Positions 31,860 through 44,765 of a stretch of 64,000 nt of DNA are shown in pieces. Every line of letters begins with the position of its first letter. Within the stretch, counting starts at the first letter, position 1. The DNA is taken from the NCBI RefSeq assembly GCF_000384215.1, contig NZ_KB913032.1, positions 5,786,588 through 5,850,587 on the forward strand, read 5' to 3'. Under the pieces are notes generated by a model. It made no database searches. It saw only the letters and a list, made by a program, of their open reading frames with translations, and was not told the DNA's origin. Position numbers and translations under genes: made by a program. This DNA is from Amycolatopsis alba DSM 44262 (lineage in GTDB: Bacteria > Actinomycetota > Actinomycetes > Mycobacteriales > Pseudonocardiaceae).

Positions 31860-33341
31860 ATGACAGAGCTTGACGGAGTCGGCGAGGTCGACGGCTCCTG
31901 GTCCGACGAGTCCGAATTCACCGCGCTGGACGCCCAGATCGCCGCGGGCGAGGCCGAGGAGGAAGCGCAGCTCGCGCAGCCGGTCCTCGCCGTCGTCGGC
32001 AGGCCCAACGTGGGCAAGTCGACCCTGGTCAACCGCATCCTCGGCCGTCGCGAGGCGGTCGTGCAGGACGTCCCCGGCGTGACCAGGGACCGCGTCGCCT
32101 ACGACGCCTTCTGGGCGGGCCGCCGGTTCACCCTGGTCGACACGGGCGGCTGGGAGCCGGACGCGACCGGGCTGCAGGCCTCCGTCGCCGCGCAGGCCGA
32201 GATCGCGATGGCCACCGCCGACGCGGTGCTGCTGGTCATCGACGCCAGTGTCGGCGCGACCGCGACCGACGAGGCCGCCTCGAAGGTGCTGCGCCGCTCG
32301 AAGAAGCCGGTGCTGCTCGTCGCCAACAAGGTCGACGACGACCGCCTGCTCGCCGACACCGCGTCACTGTGGTCGCTCGGCCTCGGCGAACCGCATCCGG
32401 TCAGCGCGCTGCACGGCCGCAGTTCGGGTGACCTGCTCGACGCCATCGTCAAGGCGCTGCCGTCGATGCCGCGCGACGGCGAACGCGCCACCGCCGGCCC
32501 GCGCCGGGTCGCGCTGGTCGGCAAGCCGAACGTGGGCAAGTCCAGCCTGCTGAACAAGATCTCGGGCGAAGAACGCTCCGTCGTGGACTCGGTCGCCGGT
32601 ACCACCGTCGATCCGGTCGACTCGCTGGTCGAACTGGACGGCGACATCTGGCGGTTCGTCGACACGGCGGGTCTGCGCAAGCGCGTCAACTCGGCCAATG
32701 GCGCGGAGTACTACGCGTCGCTGCGGACCAAGACCGCGATCGACGCCGCCGAGGTGGCGATCGTGCTGCTGGACGCCGCCGAACCGCTTTCGGAGCAGGA
32801 CCTGCGGGTGCTGACGATGGTCGTCGAGGCGGGCCGCGCGTGCGTGCTCGCCTTCAACAAGTGGGACCTCGTCGACGAGGACCGCCGCCACGCCATGGTC
32901 CGCGAACTGGAACGCGGCCTGGTCCGGGTGCCGTGGGCGGACAAGGTCAACATCTCGGCGCTCACCGGCCGGTCCGTCCGTAAGCTCGCGCCCGCGCTGC
33001 GGACCGCACTGAAGTCCTGGGACCAGCGCGTCCCGACCGGTCAGCTGAACGGCTGGCTGGCCGACCTCATCGCCGCGACCCCGCCGCCGGTGCGTGGCGG
33101 CAAGCAGCCGAAGGTGCTCTTCGCGACCCAGGCGGGCATTCGGCCGCCGACGCTGGTCCTTTTCACCACCGGATTCCTCGAGGCGGGCTATCGCCGGTTC
33201 ATCGAACGCAAGTTCCGTGAGCGATTCGGCTTCGAGGGCAGCCCCGTACGGGTGAATGTCCGGGTACGCGAAAAGAAGCAACGGCCCAAGGTCGGCGGAA
33301 AAGCGGCCGGTAAATCGGCCGGAAAACCGAAGACTCGCTGA
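31860..33341 (+). CDS. der: Ribosome biogenesis GTPase Der (EngA)
   Basis: A 493-aa double GTPase with a ~40-residue acidic N-terminal extension. G1 motifs are GRPNVGKST and GKPNVGKSS, switch segments [11 protein letters not shown] and DTAGLRK, and specificity motifs NKVD and NKWD. A KH-like domain follows ([16 protein letters not shown]) and a basic Lys/Gly-rich tail. It is essential for 50S subunit assembly. ATG 31860 starts 3 bp after the acyltransferase stop. It is the last gene of the block matching mycobacterial Rv1691-Rv1713. Confidence 0.96.
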
Positions 33342-33493: not shown

Positions 33494-33558
33494 TCATTCG
33501 GAGAGCGAGCCCGAATGACGCACTTCGCGAAAGGTGTGTGATGGGCTTGCGCGCCCAT
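33494..33558 (+). promoter_or_regulatory. Structured leader of the pls-like gene
   Basis: Two hairpins lie in the ~110 bp before the start codon. TCATTCGG (33494-33501) pairs with CCGAATGA (33511-33518), and ATGGGC (33541-33546) pairs with GCCCAT (33553-33558). The second ends 29 bp before the ATG. Control of translation or transcription by this leader is only inference. Confidence 0.4.
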
Positions 33559-33587: not shown

Positions 33588-36500
33588 ATGACACTGACCG
33601 CCGATTCCCGGCCGATCGCCTGTGTCGCCGACGTCACCGTCGCCCCGTCCCCGGCTCCCGTCGCCGACCGTGCCCTGTTCTGGTCCGGTCTCGGCGCCGG
33701 TGAGCGCACACTGATCGACATCCTCGCCGAGACCGCCGCCCGCCACCCCAACGCGGGCGCGATCGACGACGGCGAGACCACACTGTCGTACCGCAAGCTC
33801 GTCGAGGAGATCGACGCCTACGGCCGCAAGCTGACCGCCAACGGCGTCGGCGTCGGCGACCGGGTCGGCGTCCGGATCTCCTCCGGCACCGCCGAGCTCT
33901 ACGTCGCGATCCTCGCCATCCTGTCCGTCGGCGCCGCCTACGTGCCGGTCGACGCGGACGACCCGGACGAGCGCGCCGAACTGGTCTTCGGTGAGGCCGA
34001 CGTCGCCGCCGTCCTCACCGACGGCGGCGTGATCACCGTCCTCGGCTCGCCGGGCGGCGTCGAGGGTTCGCCCGCGCCGACCGACGACGCCTGGATCATC
34101 TTCACCTCCGGTTCGACCGGTAAGCCGAAGGGCGTCGCGGTTTCGCACGCCTCGGCGGCCGCTTTCGTCGACGCCGAGGCCCAGCTGTTCCTCACCGAGG
34201 AGCCGATCGGTCCCGGCGACCGCGTGCTCGCCGGACTGTCCGTCGCCTTCGACGCGTCCTGCGAGGAGATGTGGCTCGCCTGGCGCCACGGCGCTTGCCT
34301 GGTCCCGGCGCCGCGTTCGCTGGTGCGCACCGGCGTCGACCTCGGCCCCTGGCTGGTCGCTCAGGGCATCACCGTCGTCTCGACCGTTCCGACGCTGGCC
34401 GCGCTGTGGCCCGCCGACGCGCTCGAAGACGTCCGCCTGCTGATCTTCGGCGGCGAAGCCTGCCCGCCCGAGCTGGCCGAACGCGTCGCCGTCGAAGGCC
34501 GCGAAGTCTGGAACACCTACGGCCCGACCGAGGCCACCGTCGTCGCCTGCGCCGCGCAGATGACCGGGGAAGGGCCCGTCCGGATCGGCCTGCCGCTGGT
34601 CGGCTGGCAGCTCGCCGTCGTCAACGAAGCGGGCGACCCGGTCGCGATGGGGGAGACCGGCGAGCTGGTCATCGGCGGTGTGGGCCTGGCCCGCTACCTC
34701 GACCCGGAGAAGGACGCCGAGAAGTTCGCGCCGCTGCCGTCGCTGGGCTGGCGCCGCGCGTACCGCAGCGGTGACATGGTCCGCGCCGAAGCCGAGGGCC
34801 TGCTGTTCCTCGGGCGTCTCGACGAGCAGGTCAAGCTCGGCGGCCGCCGCATCGAACTCGGCGAGGTCGACGCCGCGCTCCAGGCGCTGCCCGGAGTGCA
34901 GGGTGCCGCCGCCGCGATCCGCCGCACCAAGGCGGGCAACCAGGTGCTCGTCGGGTACGTCGTGCCAGCCGAAGGCGTGAAATTCGACCACGACGAGGCC
35001 GCGACCAGGCTGCGTGAGCAGCTGCCCGCCGCGCTCGTCCCGCTGCTGGCGCTGGTCGAAGACCTGCCGACGCGGACCTCGGGCAAGGTCGACCGCAACG
35101 CCCTGCCCTGGCCGCTGTCCACTGTGGACGCCGCGAAATCCGGTCTGTCGCCGACGGAGAGCTGGCTCGCCGAAGGCTGGGCGGAGATCCTGGGTGTCTC
35201 GGTCGACAACCCGAAGGCCGACTTCTTCACCAACGGCGGCGGCAGCCTGACGGCCGCCCAGCTGATCGCGCGGATCCGCACCCGGCACCCGCAGGTGTCG
35301 GTGAACGACATCTACGCCAACCCGAAGCTCGGCGCGCTCGCGTCGATGCTGGACGCGCTGAGCGGACAGAAGACCGAGCGACGCGACATCGCCCCGACCC
35401 CGCGCAAGGCCGGGATCATCCAGTCGTTGCTGACGATCCCGCTGATGGGCCTGGTCGGCCTGCGCTGGACGACCATCGCCGCGACGCTGTCGAACGTGCT
35501 GTCGCTGGCCGGTTTCGCCTGGGCGCCGACGCTGAACTGGGTGTGGATCGCCGTCGCGTGGGTCGCGCTGTTCAGCCCGGCGGGCCGGATCGCGATCTCG
35601 GCGACCGGTGCGCGGCTGCTGCTGCGCGGTGTCCGTCCCGGAAGCTACCCGCGTGGCGGGAACGTCCACTTGCGACTGTGGACGGCCGAGAAGCTCGCTG
35701 AATTCAGCGGCGCGGACAGTGTCGCCGGCGCTTCCTGGATGACGACGTACGCCAAGGCACTCGGCGCGCGGATCGCCAAGGACGTCGACCTGCACTCGCC
35801 GCCGCCGGTCACCGGCATGCTGAAACTCGGCCGCGGTGCCGCCATCGAACCCGAGGTCGACCTGACCGGGCACTGGGTGGACGGCGACCTCGTGCACATC
35901 GGCAAGATCCGGATCGGCGCCGACGCGCGGATCGGTGCGCGCAGCACGCTGTTCCCCGGCGCGCGGATCGGCAAGGGCGCGGAGATCGCGGCCGGGTCGA
36001 CCGTCCGCGGCAACGTGCCGACCGGGCAGCGCTGGGCCGGTGCGCCCGCCGCCCGCGCCGCCAAGGACGCGCTGAAGTGGCCGTCGAGCCGCCCGCCGCG
36101 TTCACGCTTCTGGGCGTCGGTGTACGGCGCGACCTCGGTCGCGCTGGGGCTGCTGCCCGCCGTCGCCGCCCTGCCCGCCGTCGCGGTGCTGGGCTACGCG
36201 ATCGCCGGTACGCCTTCGCTGGGCGCCGCGCTCGGTCAGGCGCTGCTGTTCACGCCGCTGGCGACCGTCGCGTACTTCCTGGCGTACGCCCTGCTCGTGC
36301 TCGTCGGCGTCCGTTCGCTGAGCATCGGCATGGTCGAGGGCTACCACCCCGTGCACGGCCGCGTCGCGTGGCAGGTCTGGGCGACCGAACGGCTGATGGG
36401 TATGGCGCGTGAGGGGCTGTTCCCCTTGTACGCCAGCCTGTTCACCCCGGTGTGGCTCCGGATGCTCGGGGCGAAGGTCGGCCGCAACGTCGAAGCGTCC

Positions 36501-37490
36501 ACCGTTCTCGCGCTGCCGAAGATGACCCAGGTGGACAGTGGCGCGTTCCTCGCGGACGACACCATGGTCGCCACCTACGAACTCGGCCACGGCTGGCTGC
36601 ACGTCGCGCCGGCGCGGATCGGCAAGCAGGCGTTCCTCGGCAACTCGGGGATGGCCGCGCCCGGCCGTTCGGTGCCCAAACGCGGTCTGGTCGGCGTGCT
36701 GTCTTCGGCTCCGCTGAAGGCGAAGAAGGGCTCCTCGTACCTCGGGATGCCGCCGCTGCCGGTCCGCCGGTCGGTCGGCGAGTCCGACACGAGCCGCACG
36801 TACACGCCGCCGCTGCGGCTGAAGGCGGCCCGCGCGCTCGTCGAACTGTGCCGGATCGTGCCGGTGATGTGCGGTGTCGCGCTGACCGTGCTGGTCGCCG
36901 CCGGGATCTTCGCGCTCGCTTCGTCCTTCGGGTTCCTGGTCGCGGTGCTGCTCGGCGGGCCGCTGCTGCTGGCCGCCGGTGCCGCCGCCGCGCTGACCGC
37001 CACCGCGATGAAGTGGCTGCTGGTCGGCCGGTTCCGCGCGGTCGACCACCCGCTGTGGAGCTCGTTCGTCTGGCGCAACGAACTCGCCGACACCTTCGTC
37101 GAGGCGCTCGCCGTGCCGTGGCTGATCGGTTCGCTCGGCGGCACTCCGCTGCTTCCGGCGTGGCTGCGGACCATGGGCGTCAAGATCGGCCGCGGGGTGT
37201 GGCTGGAGACGTACTGGCTGCCCGAGTCGGACTTGGTGAGCCTCGGCGACGGCGCGACGATCAACCGCGGCTGTGTCGTGCAGACGCACCTGTTCCACGA
37301 CCGGATCATGACGATGTCGCCGGTGACCCTGGACGAGGGAGCGACGCTCGGGCCGCACGGTATCGTGCTTCCTGGCGCGAGCATCGGCGCGCGGACGACC
37401 GTCGGACCGGGGTCTCTGGTGACCAGGGGTGACGCGGTTCCCGCCGACTCGCGCTGGCTGGGCAATCCCATCTCGGCCTGGACGAAGTAG
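33588..37490 (+). CDS. Pls/PosA-type nonribosomal peptide synthetase (poly-amino-acid synthetase-like)
   Basis: A 1300-aa protein, close to the 1319 aa of Streptomyces epsilon-poly-L-lysine synthetase. Order: adenylation domain (1-510; FTSGSTGKPKGVAV near 173, FDASCEEMW at 221, NTYGPTEATVV, TSGKVDRNAL), carrier domain with pantetheine Ser553 (NGGGSL), then ~700 residues of alternating membrane helices and soluble domains rich in hexapeptide-like repeats (IGKIRIGADARIGARSTLF, GRGVWLETYW). There is no classical condensation or thioesterase domain, as in Pls. My hand-read ten-residue code is D-A-E-S-I-G-T-V-V-K, which resembles codes for lysine. An M1 peptidase follows 21 bp downstream. Product unknown; such homologues also occur in non-producers. 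Confidence 0.9.
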   Translation: MTLTADSRPIACVADVTVAPSPAPVADRALFWSGLGAGERTLIDILAETAARHPNAGAIDDGETTLSYRKLVEEIDAYGRKLTANGVGVGDRVGVRISSGTAELYVAILAILSVGAAYVPVDADDPDERAELVFGEADVAAVLTDGGVITVLGSPGGVEGSPAPTDDAWIIFTSGSTGKPKGVAVSHASAAAFVDAEAQLFLTEEPIGPGDRVLAGLSVAFDASCEEMWLAWRHGACLVPAPRSLVRTGVDLGPWLVAQGITVVSTVPTLAALWPADALEDVRLLIFGGEACPPELAERVAVEGREVWNTYGPTEATVVACAAQMTGEGPVRIGLPLVGWQLAVVNEAGDPVAMGETGELVIGGVGLARYLDPEKDAEKFAPLPSLGWRRAYRSGDMVRAEAEGLLFLGRLDEQVKLGGRRIELGEVDAALQALPGVQGAAAAIRRTKAGNQVLVGYVVPAEGVKFDHDEAATRLREQLPAALVPLLALVEDLPTRTSGKVDRNALPWPLSTVDAAKSGLSPTESWLAEGWAEILGVSVDNPKADFFTNGGGSLTAAQLIARIRTRHPQVSVNDIYANPKLGALASMLDALSGQKTERRDIAPTPRKAGIIQSLLTIPLMGLVGLRWTTIAATLSNVLSLAGFAWAPTLNWVWIAVAWVALFSPAGRIAISATGARLLLRGVRPGSYPRGGNVHLRLWTAEKLAEFSGADSVAGASWMTTYAKALGARIAKDVDLHSPPPVTGMLKLGRGAAIEPEVDLTGHWVDGDLVHIGKIRIGADARIGARSTLFPGARIGKGAEIAAGSTVRGNVPTGQRWAGAPAARAAKDALKWPSSRPPRSRFWASVYGATSVALGLLPAVAALPAVAVLGYAIAGTPSLGAALGQALLFTPLATVAYFLAYALLVLVGVRSLSIGMVEGYHPVHGRVAWQVWATERLMGMAREGLFPLYASLFTPVWLRMLGAKVGRNVEASTVLALPKMTQVDSGAFLADDTMVATYELGHGWLHVAPARIGKQAFLGNSGMAAPGRSVPKRGLVGVLSSAPLKAKKGSSYLGMPPLPVRRSVGESDTSRTYTPPLRLKAARALVELCRIVPVMCGVALTVLVAAGIFALASSFGFLVAVLLGGPLLLAAGAAAALTATAMKWLLVGRFRAVDHPLWSSFVWRNELADTFVEALAVPWLIGSLGGTPLLPAWLRTMGVKIGRGVWLETYWLPESDLVSLGDGATINRGCVVQTHLFHDRIMTMSPVTLDEGATLGPHGIVLPGASIGARTTVGPGSLVTRGDAVPADSRWLGNPISAWTK

Positions 37491-37511
37491 AGGAAGCGGG
37501 GTCTTTCGCGG

Positions 37512-38921
37512 GTGATTTCGAAGGCCTCCGCGCAGCCCTCGCCCGGCGCGGACACCTCCGGCGACTCCTATCTGCCCCATCACGGTAACGGCGGTTACCG
37601 GGTCCGGCACTACGATCTGGAGCTGGACTACAAGATCGGTCCCAACCGGCTGTCGGCCTCCGCGGGTATCACCGCGGAGGCGACGCAGGCGCTGTCGCGG
37701 TTCACACTCGACTTCGGCGAGTTTCGGATCAACCGGGTCCTGGTCAACGGGAAACCGGCCAAGTACACGCGGCGCGGGCACAAGCTCCAGGTGAAGCCCG
37801 CAAAGTCGTTGGCTCTCGGTAGCGAGTTCCTGGTGGAGATCCACTATGTCGGTAATCCGCGGCCGCTTCCCGGACTGTGGGGCGACATCGGGTGGGACGA
37901 ACTGACCGATGGCTCGCTCGTCGCGAGCCAGCCGGTCGGGGCGCCGTCGTGGTTCCCGTGCAACGACCATCCGGCGGACAAAGCGACCTACCGTGTCGCG
38001 CTGACGACGTCTTCGCCGTACCTCGTGGCCGTCACCGGGAACCTGGTGTCGCGGCTTTCGCGCGCGAGCACCACGCGGTGGGTCTTCGAACGCCCGGAGC
38101 CGACGCCGACGTATCTGATGAGTGTCCAAATCGGACGGTACGACGACGTCGAACTGGTCTCCGGCCCGCAGCCCGGCTGGCTTTCGCAACCGTCGGTTTC
38201 GGCGTACCGGATGAGCATCGACGGTGACACCGTGCTCGCTGCGGTCCCGCAACGGGCCGCCGTCCCGCCGCGCCTGCGCCGCCCTTTTTCGCGCGACTTC
38301 GGGCGCCAGGGCAAGATCATGGACTCGCTGCAGCGGCTGTTCGGTCCTTACCCGTTCGGTGAATACGTCATCGTGGTCACCGACGACGACCTCGACGACC
38401 CGATCGAAGCGCAGGGCATGTCGATCTTCGGCGCCAACCACGTCGACGGGCGGCGCACCCACGAGCGGCTCGTCGTGCACGAACTGGCGCACCAGTGGTT
38501 CGGCAACAGCCTGACCGTCGCCGACTGGCGCCACATCTGGCTGAACGAGGGCTTCGCGACGTACGCGGAATGGCTCTGGTCCGAGGAATCCGGCGGGCAG
38601 ACCGCCCACGCGTGGGCGAAGACGTGGCACGCGCGGATGAAGGCGAAGCCCGCGGACCTGCGCCTCGCCGACCCCGGAGTGTCGCGGATGTTCGACGAGC
38701 GGGTGTACAAACGCGGCGGCCTTCTGTTGCACGCCTTGCGTTCTCTCGTCGGCGACGAGGTCTTCTTCCCGCTGGTGAAGGCTTGGGCGGTGGAGAACCG
38801 GCATGGTCTGGTGAGCACCGCTGGGTTTGTGGCGCTCGCGGAACGCTTCGCTGGGCGCTCGCTTGCCGCTTTCTTCGACGCCTGGCTGGACGCTCCGGCG
38901 CTGCCTCCGCTTCCGGCTTGA
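37512..38921 (+). CDS. M1 family zinc metallopeptidase
   Basis: A 469-aa peptidase of the aminopeptidase N family. The zinc site is HELAHQW with a second ligand 18 residues on in NEGFATYAEW (His323, Glu324, His327, Glu346). The usual GAMEN exopeptidase motif is replaced by EAQGMSIFG. An N-terminal beta-saddle domain precedes, and the helical C-terminal domain is short, so this is a compact form about half the length of PepN. No signal peptide is seen, so it acts in the cytoplasm. It begins 21 bp after the Pls-like synthetase and is probably co-transcribed. A role in degrading or trimming the synthetase product is inferred from this pairing. Confidence 0.92.
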   Translation: MISKASAQPSPGADTSGDSYLPHHGNGGYRVRHYDLELDYKIGPNRLSASAGITAEATQALSRFTLDFGEFRINRVLVNGKPAKYTRRGHKLQVKPAKSLALGSEFLVEIHYVGNPRPLPGLWGDIGWDELTDGSLVASQPVGAPSWFPCNDHPADKATYRVALTTSSPYLVAVTGNLVSRLSRASTTRWVFERPEPTPTYLMSVQIGRYDDVELVSGPQPGWLSQPSVSAYRMSIDGDTVLAAVPQRAAVPPRLRRPFSRDFGRQGKIMDSLQRLFGPYPFGEYVIVVTDDDLDDPIEAQGMSIFGANHVDGRRTHERLVVHELAHQWFGNSLTVADWRHIWLNEGFATYAEWLWSEESGGQTAHAWAKTWHARMKAKPADLRLADPGVSRMFDERVYKRGGLLLHALRSLVGDEVFFPLVKAWAVENRHGLVSTAGFVALAERFAGRSLAAFFDAWLDAPALPPLPA

Positions 38922-40188: not shown

Positions 40189-42480
40189 ATGAGCGGGCTG
40201 TCCAGGCGATCGATGCTGAAGGCTGCCGCGGGGACCGCCGCGCTCGGCGGTCTGTGGGCGCGAGGGGTCGCTCCGGCGGAGGCGTCCGGGGACGTCCACC
40301 GGAGAGTGGCCGACGACGCGCGCATGGTCTGGAAGCGCATGCCGAAGAGCTGGCAGGAGGGGCCGTTCCTCGCGAACGGCTTCCTCGGCGTCCAGCTCTA
40401 CGCGGGGGCGGCGCCGAACGTCCTCAAGGTGATGCTCAGCCACTCCCGTGTCCAGGACCAGCGAGGACAGTGGGAAGCGGGCATCGGGTACTCACGGCTC
40501 CCGATCGGCTACCTCACCCTCACCTTCGCGGGCGCGATCACGGCGGTGGACTGGCACCTCGATCTGTACAACGCCGAACTCGGCGGCACGATCACCACCA
40601 CACGGGGTTCGGTGCGGTTCTCCGCGCTGGTCCACAACGACCAGGACCTCCTCCTCGTCTCGCTCACCGGAGAGGCGGCCGCGGACTGGGGGTTCACGCC
40701 GATCGAGTCGGCCACGACCAGGACGATCCGCAAACCGCCCGAGTACACCGCCAATCCCGCTCCCAAGCTCGGCAGCGCGGGCGCTGTCCGGTACTGCGAG
40801 CAGCCGCTGCACGCGGGCGGCGGCTACACGACGGCGTGGCGTGAGCGGACCATCGGTACGCGACGGCTCCTGGCGGCGACGGTCGCGTACGGGTTTCCCG
40901 AACCGACTCACACGGCCGAAGCGATCAGGACGGTCCACCGGGCGTCGGCGTCGAATCCGGACGTGCTCGTCGCCCGCCATCGGCGCTGGTGGAACGCCTT
41001 CTACCGGCGCAGCTTCGTGTCCATTCCGGACAAAAGGATCCAGCGGTTCTACTGGATCCAGCTGTACAAGACCGCCTGCGCCACCCGCGCCGACGGCCCG
41101 GTCGTCGCCGAATGGGGGCCGTGGTTCCCGGAGGTCGGCAACAGCTGGACGGCGGTGTGGTGGAACCTCAACGTCCAGGTCACGTACCCGATCGTCAACA
41201 GCAGCAACCATCCCGAGCTCGACGCCGTCACGGAGACCTTCCGGCGAGACCACGCCAATCTCGAACTCTCGGTCCCTCCCGCGTACCGGGACGGCGACAC
41301 GTACGCGCTCTCGCATCCGGGGGACTGGCGGCTGCGGCCCGGCGGCACCCGCGCGGTCGGGATCCCCGGCCCGGCCACGAAGAACGACCAGACCGGGAAC
41401 CTGATCTGGGGCCTGCACAACGTCTGGCTCGCGTACCGGCACAGCATGGACGTCCGCATCCTGCGCGACGTCCTGTACCCGACGCTCGCCAAGGCGCTCA
41501 ACTACTACCGCCACTTCCTCGTCACCGGACCGGACGGCAGGCTGCATCTGCCGATGACGCGGTCGCCCGAGTACGCCGACGCGGCCGACTGCACGTACGA
41601 CCTGTCGCTGATCCGCTGGGCCGCGCGCACCCTCGTCGAATCCGCGGCCAAGCTGCGTATCGACGACCCGCGCGTACCCGCGTGGCGCGAGATCGGCGAG
41701 AAACTGGTTCCGTATCACCAAGATCCCGATCGGGGAGTGCTGATCGGCGACGGTGTGCCCCTCGCCGAATCACACCGGCACTTCTCGCATCTGCTGTGGC
41801 TCTATCCACTGCGGGAGAAACTCTGGGACCGCCCCGGTGACCGGGACGTCATGCGCCGTACGTTCGCGCATTGGTCGAGCATCCAGGACAAATGGCACGG
41901 CTACAGTTTCGCCGCCGCGTCGTCGATGAGTTCCGTGATGGACGCGCCCGAGGAAGCGTTGCGCTACCTGAAGATCTTCCTCGACGGGACCGTCGTCGCG
42001 GACACCCAGCTGACGCCGAACACGATGTACCGCGAAGGCGCGAACCTCGCGATCGAAAGCCCGATCACCGCCGCGCAGTCCGTTGTGGACATGCTCCTCC
42101 AAGGCGATCACAACGTCCTGAAGGTCTTTCCGTCGGTTTCGCGGGCCTGGCCGGACGCCTCCTTCGAAAGCCTGCGCGCGGAGGGCGCCTTCCTGGTGGA
42201 CGCTTCCCGGCGGAACGGCGCGACCGAATGGATCCGCGTCCGCAGCGAAGCGGGGGAGCCGCTCACCCTCCAGCACGGGATCCCCGGTGACATCGAGGTC
42301 CGTGACGCGCGCGGGCGGCGATTGCCTTGGCGGGCCGAAGGTCCGGGCGCGATCTCGATCCCGCTCGGCCGCGGCGGGACGGCCGTCGTCACGCGGCGCG
42401 GCACTCGTCCGGTCATGGAGCCTCGCGACGTACCCGGCGACCGCGGTACTCCGGCATGGGGACTCGACCAGGAGGTCTGA
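40189..42480 (+). CDS. Tat-exported GH95-like protein, copy 1
   Basis: A 763-aa protein with a twin-arginine signal (LSRRSMLKAAAG..) and GGAGG before ATG 40189. The architecture matches family GH95 (alpha-L-fucosidase/galactosidase): an N-terminal beta-sandwich starting at the WxxMPxxWxEGPFLANGFLG motif, then an (alpha/alpha)6 toroid. The Asn-x-Asn pair is present in WWNLNVQVTYP (near residue 326) and a Glu in RSPEYADAADC (near 460). Where GH95 has the catalytic Asp (QIDGNFG) this protein has AIESPITAAQS (near 621). Activity is therefore uncertain. Copy 2 starts 2 bp after its stop, so they form one operon. Confidence 0.82.
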   Translation: MSGLSRRSMLKAAAGTAALGGLWARGVAPAEASGDVHRRVADDARMVWKRMPKSWQEGPFLANGFLGVQLYAGAAPNVLKVMLSHSRVQDQRGQWEAGIGYSRLPIGYLTLTFAGAITAVDWHLDLYNAELGGTITTTRGSVRFSALVHNDQDLLLVSLTGEAAADWGFTPIESATTRTIRKPPEYTANPAPKLGSAGAVRYCEQPLHAGGGYTTAWRERTIGTRRLLAATVAYGFPEPTHTAEAIRTVHRASASNPDVLVARHRRWWNAFYRRSFVSIPDKRIQRFYWIQLYKTACATRADGPVVAEWGPWFPEVGNSWTAVWWNLNVQVTYPIVNSSNHPELDAVTETFRRDHANLELSVPPAYRDGDTYALSHPGDWRLRPGGTRAVGIPGPATKNDQTGNLIWGLHNVWLAYRHSMDVRILRDVLYPTLAKALNYYRHFLVTGPDGRLHLPMTRSPEYADAADCTYDLSLIRWAARTLVESAAKLRIDDPRVPAWREIGEKLVPYHQDPDRGVLIGDGVPLAESHRHFSHLLWLYPLREKLWDRPGDRDVMRRTFAHWSSIQDKWHGYSFAAASSMSSVMDAPEEALRYLKIFLDGTVVADTQLTPNTMYREGANLAIESPITAAQSVVDMLLQGDHNVLKVFPSVSRAWPDASFESLRAEGAFLVDASRRNGATEWIRVRSEAGEPLTLQHGIPGDIEVRDARGRRLPWRAEGPGAISIPLGRGGTAVVTRRGTRPVMEPRDVPGDRGTPAWGLDQEV

Positions 42481-42482
42481 GC

Positions 42483-44765
42483 ATGGACATCACGCGCAGG
42501 ACGGTGCTCGGCGGGGCGCTGGCGGGTGTGGCGGCGGCCGGGTTCGCGCCGTCCGCCTCGGCGGCGGAGATCGACAGCGGCCTCGACTGGCCCGGTTTCC
42601 TCGCCGCCGCGGACCTGGTCTGGCGGAGGATGCCGAAGACCTGGTACGAAGGCCCGTTCCTGGGCAACGGTTTCCTGGGCTCGGGTATCTACGCGGAACC
42701 GGGCAGGAACGCTGTCCGGTTCAACGTCCAGCACAGCGAGGTACAGGATCACCGGCCCGAATTCGGTTCCCTGTTCGGGCTCGCGAGGCTGCCGATCGGC
42801 CATTTCACCCTCGAACCGGTCGGCGCCATCACCGGGATCGACTGGCGGATGGACCTCTGGAACGCCGAACTCAGGGGAACGATCACCACCGCCGCGGGCA
42901 GTCTTTCGGTGCGGGCGATCGTCCACACCGGACAGTCGCTGCTGGCCGTCGAGATCGAGCCGACCGAGGGTGAGCGCGGCTTCGCGTGGGTGTTCCACCC
43001 GGCCGAGGCGGTGAGCCCGAGAACGGATCCGAAGTTCGGGAAGCCGCCGCCCGCCGGGTACGTCGCCAATCCACCCGCGAGCCTGGAAACCAGTGGTGAC
43101 AGCAGGCTGTCCGTGCAGAGCCTGCTGGCGGGCGGTGAGCACGTCACGGCGTGGCGTGAGGTCGCCAGGGGATCCAAGCGCACGCTGTACACGTCCGTCG
43201 CCTGGTCACATCCGAAGAGGACGGCCGCACGGGAAGCGCTGAGGACGGTCCGCCGGGCCGAGCCGTTCGACGTCCTCGCGATCGATCACCGCCGCTGGTG
43301 GCACGACTACTACCGGCACGGCTTCCTGTCCATTCCGGACACCCGGCTCCAGAGCTTCTACTGGATCCAGCTGTACAAGGTCGCCTCGGCCGCGCGAAAA
43401 GAAGCGCCGGTGATGGCGACCTGCGGACCGTGGCTGGAACCGACCCCGTGGCCCGCGACCTGGTGGAACCTCAACGTCCAGCTGGAGTACTGGCTTATCC
43501 ACGGCTCGAACCACCTGGAACTGGACGCCGTCAGCCACTCGCTCGGCAAATACCGCGCGAACCTGACGAGCCAGGTCGCCGAGCCGTACCAGCACGATTC
43601 CGCGGGTATCCCGCGCACGACCGACATGAACCTGCTCAACGGCGCGGCCGGGACGAACTCCGGGTTCCCGGTCGGCGTCCCCGGCCAGGAGACGCCGACG
43701 CCGGAGGTCGGCAATCTCACCTGGGCACTGCACAACGTCTGGCTGTCCTATCGGCACACGATGGACCGGCGCCTCCTGCGTGACACGCTGTTCCCGTTGC
43801 TGCGCAAGGCGATCAACTACTACCTGCATTTCCTCGCACCCGGACCGGACGGGAAGCTGCACCTGCCGCCGACGTTCTCCCCGGAGTACGGCGTCAACGC
43901 GCCCGACTGCAACTACGATCTCGCGCTGATCCGCTGGGGATGCAAGACGCTGCTGGAATCGGCGGCGGAACTGCGGATCGAAGACCCGCTCGCGCGGCGG
44001 TGGCGGGAGGTCCTGGTCACGCTGGTCCCGTATCCGGCCGACGCCGACGGCTACATGATCGGCGCCGGGGTGCCGTTCGCGAAGTCGCATCGGCACTACT
44101 CGCATCTGCTGCAGATCTACCCGCTGTACGAGATCACCTGGGAGCGGCCGGAGCACCGGCACGTCATCGAGACCTCGCTCGACCACTGGGTGGGCTTCGA
44201 GGGCGCGTTGCAGGGCTACACGTTCACCGGGGCCGCGTCGATGTCGGCACAGATGCTGCGCGGCGAGAAGGCCGAGTTCTACCTCGGGGAGCTGCAGCGG
44301 CGCTACATCCAGCCGAACACGATGTACAAGGAATCCGGCCCGGTCATCGAGACGCCGCTCTCGGCGGCGCAGTCGCTGCACGACATGCTCGTGCAGAGCT
44401 GGGGCGGGGTCATCCGGCTGTTCCCGGCCGTACCCGCCGGCTGGGCGGACGCCGCGCTGCGCGACTTCCGGACGCAGGGCGCGTTCCTGCTCAGCGCCTC
44501 ACGGCAAGGTGGCAGGACACGCTGGGTCAAGGTGACCAGTGAGGCCGGGGCGCCTTGTGTGCTGCGGACCGACCTGGAAGGGGAGCTGACCGTCCGCGAC
44601 CGGTGGGGGAGGCCGAAACGCTGGCGGCGGCTGCCGAACGGCGACGTCCAGCTCGACCTGCGGCGCGGCGAAGAAGCCGTCGTGCATCGCGCGGGCGACC
44701 ACCCAGACCTCGAGATCCGGCCCGTTCCGGCGAACGGGGACCCCGCTCCGTGGGGGATGCCGTGA
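42483..44765 (+). CDS. Tat-exported GH95-like protein, copy 2
   Basis: A 760-aa paralogue of the preceding protein, with a Tat signal (ITRRTVLGGALAGVAAAG). The same landmarks are present: MPKTWYEGPFLGNGFLG, WWNLNVQLEYW near 326, FSPEYGVNAPDC near 464 and VIETPLSAAQSLHDMLVQ near 620. It shares the Glu-Ser/Thr-Pro replacement of the GH95 QIDGNFG motif, so the change predates the duplication. The two copies probably act on related side chains outside the cell. The in-frame ORF upstream to 42327 belongs to copy 1 in another frame. Confidence 0.82.
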   Translation: MDITRRTVLGGALAGVAAAGFAPSASAAEIDSGLDWPGFLAAADLVWRRMPKTWYEGPFLGNGFLGSGIYAEPGRNAVRFNVQHSEVQDHRPEFGSLFGLARLPIGHFTLEPVGAITGIDWRMDLWNAELRGTITTAAGSLSVRAIVHTGQSLLAVEIEPTEGERGFAWVFHPAEAVSPRTDPKFGKPPPAGYVANPPASLETSGDSRLSVQSLLAGGEHVTAWREVARGSKRTLYTSVAWSHPKRTAAREALRTVRRAEPFDVLAIDHRRWWHDYYRHGFLSIPDTRLQSFYWIQLYKVASAARKEAPVMATCGPWLEPTPWPATWWNLNVQLEYWLIHGSNHLELDAVSHSLGKYRANLTSQVAEPYQHDSAGIPRTTDMNLLNGAAGTNSGFPVGVPGQETPTPEVGNLTWALHNVWLSYRHTMDRRLLRDTLFPLLRKAINYYLHFLAPGPDGKLHLPPTFSPEYGVNAPDCNYDLALIRWGCKTLLESAAELRIEDPLARRWREVLVTLVPYPADADGYMIGAGVPFAKSHRHYSHLLQIYPLYEITWERPEHRHVIETSLDHWVGFEGALQGYTFTGAASMSAQMLRGEKAEFYLGELQRRYIQPNTMYKESGPVIETPLSAAQSLHDMLVQSWGGVIRLFPAVPAGWADAALRDFRTQGAFLLSASRQGGRTRWVKVTSEAGAPCVLRTDLEGELTVRDRWGRPKRWRRLPNGDVQLDLRRGEEAVVHRAGDHPDLEIRPVPANGDPAPWGMP

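Follow-up and report, generated by a model that had tools for sequence, protein, structure and literature searches.

The arrangement in which a peptidase gene follows the gene of the epsilon-poly-L-lysine (epsilon-PL) synthetase Pls is known from actinobacteria. Pls is a membrane protein with a C-terminal region that, in the published architecture, is built of three soluble domains surrounded by six transmembrane helices, and its mechanism has been described (PMC9205021). In Streptomyces albulus, pldII is reported to adjoin pls with a 4-bp overlap, the two forming one operon (PMC4361855), and PldII is stated to be translationally coupled to pls (PMC9223678). A pls-peptidase operon has also been reported for Corynebacterium variabile, the pls of which yields epsilon-PL of 26-35 residues when placed in Streptomyces coelicolor (PMC8117764). 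According to the same and another report, the peptidase encoded next to pls in Streptomyces degrades epsilon-PL (PMC8117764, PMC9205021). As to occurrence, one survey counts 730 epsilon-poly-L-lysine clusters in Streptomyces (PMC11734326), and a paper on Amycolatopsis states such a cluster, with 100% similarity, for all strains studied there (PMC11004387). Here, we analyse a pls gene and the M1 metallopeptidase gene that follows it in Amycolatopsis alba DSM 44262. They lie in a stretch of 64,000 nucleotides, called the window in the following, of contig NZ_KB913032.1 (positions 5,786,588 to 5,850,587); the host genome comprises 9.8 Mb in one contig.

We conclude, with a probability of roughly 0.88, that the two genes form, in Amycolatopsis, a pls operon like that of S. 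albulus, in which an M1 peptidase occupies the pldII position; the product and the activity of the peptidase are predictions. Since operons of pls and a peptidase have been published before and annotations of epsilon-PL clusters exist for Amycolatopsis, the pair is a further example of these.

A preliminary description of this DNA had proposed that the first gene encodes a synthetase of 1300 residues of the Pls type, with a single module of an adenylation (A) domain and a peptidyl carrier protein (PCP) domain and with neither a condensation nor a thioesterase domain. This description is borne out. The Pfam scan gives AMP-binding, AMP-binding_C, PP-binding and Hexapep domains in the 1300-residue protein, and no condensation or thioesterase domain was found by it at E ≤ 0.001. 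In NCBIfam, the protein is assigned to the Pls/PosA family of non-ribosomal peptide synthetases (NRPSs), TIGR02353, with 739.4 bits compared to a cut-off of 423.1 and over the full model. The PCP serine motif FFTNGGGSL and all A-domain motifs that were looked for are present. A degenerate A domain, which the preliminary description had named as an outcome that would speak against it, did not appear and was dropped as a candidate, the inspected motifs being intact. An alternative in-frame GTG at 33534 would lengthen the protein by 18 residues, to 1318.

In the C-terminal half of Pls, a simple hydropathy scan gives four hydrophobic stretches (residues 652-672, 844-878, 885-919 and 1081-1141), and one more, at residues 101-124, falls within the A domain. 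A profile constructed from 34 Pls relatives has weak matches (best E = 6e-7) to hexapeptide-type acyltransferases at two soluble parts of the C-terminal half, the matched proteins being a WxcM-like protein, serine acetyltransferase, QdtC, galactoside O-acetyltransferase and others.

The closest solved relative of the A domain is 7wew (E = 1.1e-204), a crystal structure deposited as epsilon-poly-L-lysine synthase, which we take to be the A domain of the S. albulus Pls. The two domains are 67% identical over 491 residues, and the pocket code, DAESIGTVVK, is the same at 10 of 10 positions. The code had previously been read by hand, and that reading is right, because the same ten pocket residues are found in the window Pls and in 7wew. 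Among cationic poly-amino-acid synthetases, Asp1 and Glu3 of the pocket are reported to be conserved, the lysine-activating members having Ala at position 2, the PDAP synthetase Phe at that position, and the ornithine-specific PosA the pocket DMEHNGTVSK (PMC10522769). Position 2 of the window Pls is Ala, matching the lysine-activating members. The pocket code thus points to lysine as the predicted substrate. A specificity for a neutral residue, the finding that was to count against a basic product, did not emerge, the pocket being that of a characterised Pls.

We have also considered that the synthetase makes another cationic homopolymer, from ornithine, diaminobutyrate, diaminopropionate or beta-lysine, and that the M1 enzyme is adapted to that polymer. 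Several polymers are indeed reported to be made by the same synthetase architecture (PMC10522769, PMC8117764), and a poly-beta-lysine producer with an adjoining lysine 2,3-aminomutase is mentioned (PMC10522769). However, identity with the 7wew pocket at all ten positions, together with the different pockets of PosA and the PDAP synthetase, argues against this scenario, as does the gene context, which is reported to be different for the other three synthetases (PMC8117764). In addition, the Pfam scan found no aminomutase or diamino-acid gene among 10 neighbouring frames, which include part of the frames between 38921 and 42327. This alternative is therefore very improbable. A new homopolymer had been a candidate as well and was dropped, the pocket being identical to that of Pls.

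The second gene was previously described as encoding a compact M1 peptidase without a signal, 21 bp after the synthetase and with an altered GAMEN motif, and our results agree. The frame lies on the same strand as pls, and the protein has both M1 Pfam domains, the N-terminal PF17900 and the catalytic PF01433. Enzymes of the M1 family have a zinc site of the form HExxH-(18)-E, a catalytic Tyr and the Glu of the GAMEN motif. These features are all found in the window peptidase, with GAMEN itself altered: HELAHQW, Glu346 and Tyr399 are present, and the GAMEN position reads D-P-I-E-A, where Glu299 aligns with the GAMEN Glu in profile alignments to tricorn interacting factor F3 and leucyl-cystinyl aminopeptidase. 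A loss of the GAMEN Glu was dropped on the basis of these alignments. No export signal was seen in the hydropathy scan, the N-terminus not being hydrophobic.

The preliminary description had suggested examining whether the adjacency of pls and M1 is conserved, and it was found to be so in two sets of genomes. For the first, a named collection, we took the best 80 of the 593 stretches that matched, while the second consists of 150 genomes of the same family, with the 150 listed of a larger number of Pls-family matches, some of the stretches ending with the contig. The two sets overlap, and their counts are not additive. An M1 neighbour was scored as linked above 300 bits, and the term close is used for a Pls that has the exact code and scores above 1500 bits against the window protein. 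Lysine-code copies below this line are called distant; the line was chosen once the table had been inspected.

In all of the best 80 named loci, the Pls has the exact lysine code and an M1 frame lies directly downstream on the same strand. The nearest named relatives among them are Amycolatopsis regifaucium and A. decaplanina, with 95-96% Pls identity. In the same-family genomes, 81 of the 82 close lysine-code Pls have an adjoining M1, the remaining one being at a contig end. Among the distant lysine-code Pls, 10 of 11 are without an M1 next door and the other is at a contig end. The other 57 Pls/PosA matches divide into 52 without M1, 3 with weak matches only (27-46 bits) and 2 at contig ends. 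Outside the close lysine-code group, a linked M1 thus occurs in none of 68 Pls matches (3 of these at contig ends). If the 1500-bit line is not applied, the 93 exact-code copies divide into 81 with the M1, 10 lacking it and 2 at contig ends. All 7 of the Amycolatopsis genomes drawn have the pair. A chance neighbourhood of the two genes was dropped as an explanation, since the linkage is too consistent.

There is also a second Pls group in related genomes (L229, L230, L237, L240, L243, L248, L251, L258 and others), with the exact lysine code, 40-56% identity to the window Pls and no adjoining M1. In L268 and L271, two members of this group, the gene lies between recO and the undecaprenyl diphosphate synthase gene.

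The 161 linked M1 proteins together with the window copy give 151 distinct sequences, in all of which P297, Glu299, H323, E324, H327, N332, E346 and Y399 are invariant. For comparison, 20 unlinked M1 paralogues from related genomes (rows at ~40% identity) mostly have A-L-E-N at the GAMEN position, and all 20 have Asp instead of Asn332. A strongly hydrophobic N-terminal stretch is present in 19 of them, the twentieth reaching 1.69 compared to a line of 1.8. Two of the linked proteins are exceptional with regard to the N-terminus: L221 has an apparent Tat lipoprotein signal and stands behind a divergent lysine-code Pls (1520 bits), and for L105 the start may be wrong. The insertion of ~25 residues before the catalytic domain (Table 1) is carried by 8 of the 151 distinct sequences, including that of the window.

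It is important to consider whether the M1 enzyme could be a general cytosolic aminopeptidase, a mere neighbour of pls without a role in epsilon-PL, PldII then being another kind of enzyme. This would fit with the lack of a hydrophobic N-terminal stretch, from the first possible start, in 159 of the 161 linked M1 proteins, with the retained GAMEN Glu, and with the misfit between the published PldII residues and the M1 relatives that is given below. On the other hand, the M1 is linked solely to the close lysine-code Pls group, and this across many actinobacterial genera; the linked form is distinct from the 20 separate paralogues, nearly all of which have signal-like N-termini; and the enzyme beside pls in Streptomyces is, as cited above, reported to degrade epsilon-PL. 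We therefore regard a general aminopeptidase as unlikely.

A number of observations nevertheless weigh against our reading of the pair as a pls operon in which an M1 enzyme takes the pldII place. PldII is described as a zinc metallopeptidase and has been modelled with two zinc ions, the residues D44, T45, D173, K174, T194 and E281 being named (PMC9223678), and a two-zinc site of this kind is not an M1 zinc site. We have placed these residues on 151 M1 relatives of the Streptomyces and Kitasatospora type, using shifts of the residue numbers from -40 to +40. With the best single shift, 3 of the 6 residues fit in 50 relatives and 2 of the 6 in 101, while in a control with shuffled sequences a fit of at least 3 of 6 was obtained in 110 of 755. 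The misfit means that PldII is not this M1, or else that the PldII model, or the numbering used for it, cannot be relied on, and for this reason we assign the window enzyme to the position of pldII only. When an M1 of Kitasatospora and one of Streptomyces lydicus served as queries, the best 120 matches included proteins of K. kifunensis and K. aureofaciens, and S. albulus was not among these 120. Furthermore, the activity of PldII is reported on the cell surface, outside the membrane (PMC9205021), which does not match an M1 without an export signal. Finally, an adjoining M1 is missing for ten lysine-code Pls of related genomes, and in its native host the C. variabile pls is reported to give no epsilon-PL that could be detected (PMC8117764).

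The last point would also be in line with a locus that is silent or decayed and gives no product. The frames in the window are open, however, with the inspected motifs intact, and the pair is retained in every Amycolatopsis genome drawn, so that we attach very little probability to this scenario.

If the pair is indeed a pls operon, homology and the literature suggest the following course of events. The membrane-bound Pls would adenylate L-lysine and then load its own carrier domain. The C-terminal soluble domains would form the isopeptide bond between the loaded lysine and the epsilon-amine of a free lysine or of the growing chain, which would be held non-covalently, and the product would be epsilon-poly-L-lysine with chains of different lengths. 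The zinc M1 enzyme encoded next door may hydrolyse the same polymer, limiting self-damage or recovering lysine.

The preliminary description had also proposed that the pair makes and trims a homo-oligomer of a basic amino acid. The lysine-type pocket, the intact motifs and the conserved M1 are consistent with this, as far as can be predicted from sequence, while the trimming is disputed in the published reports: in one, inactivation of Pld and PldII is without effect on the chain length (PMC8506220), and in another, repression of pldII leads to longer chains (PMC9223678).

We tentatively suggest, as a possibility that we would not favor over its negation, that the Pls-linked M1 enzymes are a distinct, mostly cytosolic and isopeptide-specialised subfamily, characterised by P-[IVL]-E-A-Q at the GAMEN position and, behind the zinc motif, by Asn332. 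Their target might be intracellular epsilon-PL, with lysine being guarded or recycled where the polymer is made, and not epsilon-PL on the surface, as is reported for the S. albulus PldII, which is perhaps another enzyme.

Table 1. Features of the pls-M1 locus and its upstream neighbour (window positions).
Feature	Position	Strand	Details and basis
der (ribosome biogenesis GTPase), housekeeping neighbour upstream, outside the system	31860..33341	+	NCBIfam NF002828, 822 bits
pls, epsilon-poly-L-lysine synthetase-type single-module NRPS	33588..37490	+	1300 aa; ATG start, stop included; ORF, TIGR02353, 7wew match
Adenylation (A) domain, pocket code DAESIGTVVK	33645..35120	+	Pfam, 7wew comparison
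Peptidyl carrier domain	35163..35351	+	PF00550
Phosphopantetheine Ser553 in FFTNGGGSL	35244-35246	+	Motif position
Pls/PosA C-terminal region	35418..37472	+	TIGR02353 positions 2-695 of 695, hydropathy, hexapeptide acyltransferase profile matches
Hexapeptide-repeat stretch, C-terminal half of Pls	35907..36011	+	PF00132, 49.6 bits
Compact M1 metallopeptidase in the pldII place	37512..38921	+	469 aa; GTG start, stop included; PF17900 and PF01433; best PDB match 6a8z
Insertion of ~25 residues before the catalytic domain, residues 219-243 of M1	38166..38240	+	Alignment occupancy
D-P-I-E-A at the GAMEN position, residues 296-300	38397..38411	+	Profile alignments to 3q7j/1z1w and 7zyf
HELAH zinc-binding motif, residues 323-327	38478..38492	+	Invariant H323, E324, H327

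Upstream of der there are an acyltransferase gene and a cytidylate kinase gene. The der gene lies within the flank (6 kb upstream, less at contig ends) in 9 of the 80 named loci, and in the flank of 18 of the 82 close copies in the same-family genomes, for which the upstream stretches are short. Since der is near the pair in few loci, this chromosomal place is common to some relatives only, the pair itself being conserved more broadly. Downstream, at 42327-44765 of the window, a frame of 812 residues with glycoside hydrolase family 95 domains is apparently unrelated to the pair.

A second synthetase of the Pls/PosA family is encoded in this genome, at approximately 7008942-7011023 of contig 1 on the minus strand (L266:7892-12301). 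It is ~30% identical to the first, has the pocket DFECLSVVTK and is without an adjoining M1. In having Phe at pocket position 2, it is similar to the PDAP synthetase as reported. Nearby genes encode an M24 peptidase, ABC transporters and an RHS-repeat protein, and they do not reveal a monomer pathway.

What is found in the window is mostly a confirmation: an Amycolatopsis with the standard epsilon-PL arrangement, which is therefore a candidate for the production of an antimicrobial that has found use in food. Like the window Pls, the Pls proteins of S. albulus and C. variabile have A and carrier domains followed by the Pls/PosA C-terminal region, no condensation or thioesterase domain being found, and the peptidase gene is directly downstream of pls in each. 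The 4-bp overlap of pls and pldII in S. albulus differs from the 21-bp gap in the window; such an overlap would be possible with an existing start codon in 96 of the 161 linked loci. PosA, the delta-poly-L-ornithine synthetase of Acinetobacter baumannii, belongs to the same TIGR02353 family, which is named for Pls and PosA, and differs from the window Pls in its pocket. For the peptidase, the best solved relatives by sequence are 6a8z/6iff, a compact M1 zinc metalloprotease of similar length (474 residues), presumably from Deinococcus radiodurans, which aligns to residues 12-468 of the window M1 but is distant from it. The PldII of S. albulus resembles the window M1 in its gene position, directly after pls, and in its description as a zinc metallopeptidase; its published residue positions and its reported surface location set it apart. 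The gain over the known systems is small. What the comparison contributes is a sharp rule for the genomes covered, according to which the close lysine-code Pls come with M1 and the other Pls/PosA proteins without it. It also adds a changed motif in which the GAMEN Glu is kept, in peptidases that may cut isopeptide-linked polylysine, and it sets the reported surface location of PldII against the missing export signal in nearly all linked M1 proteins.

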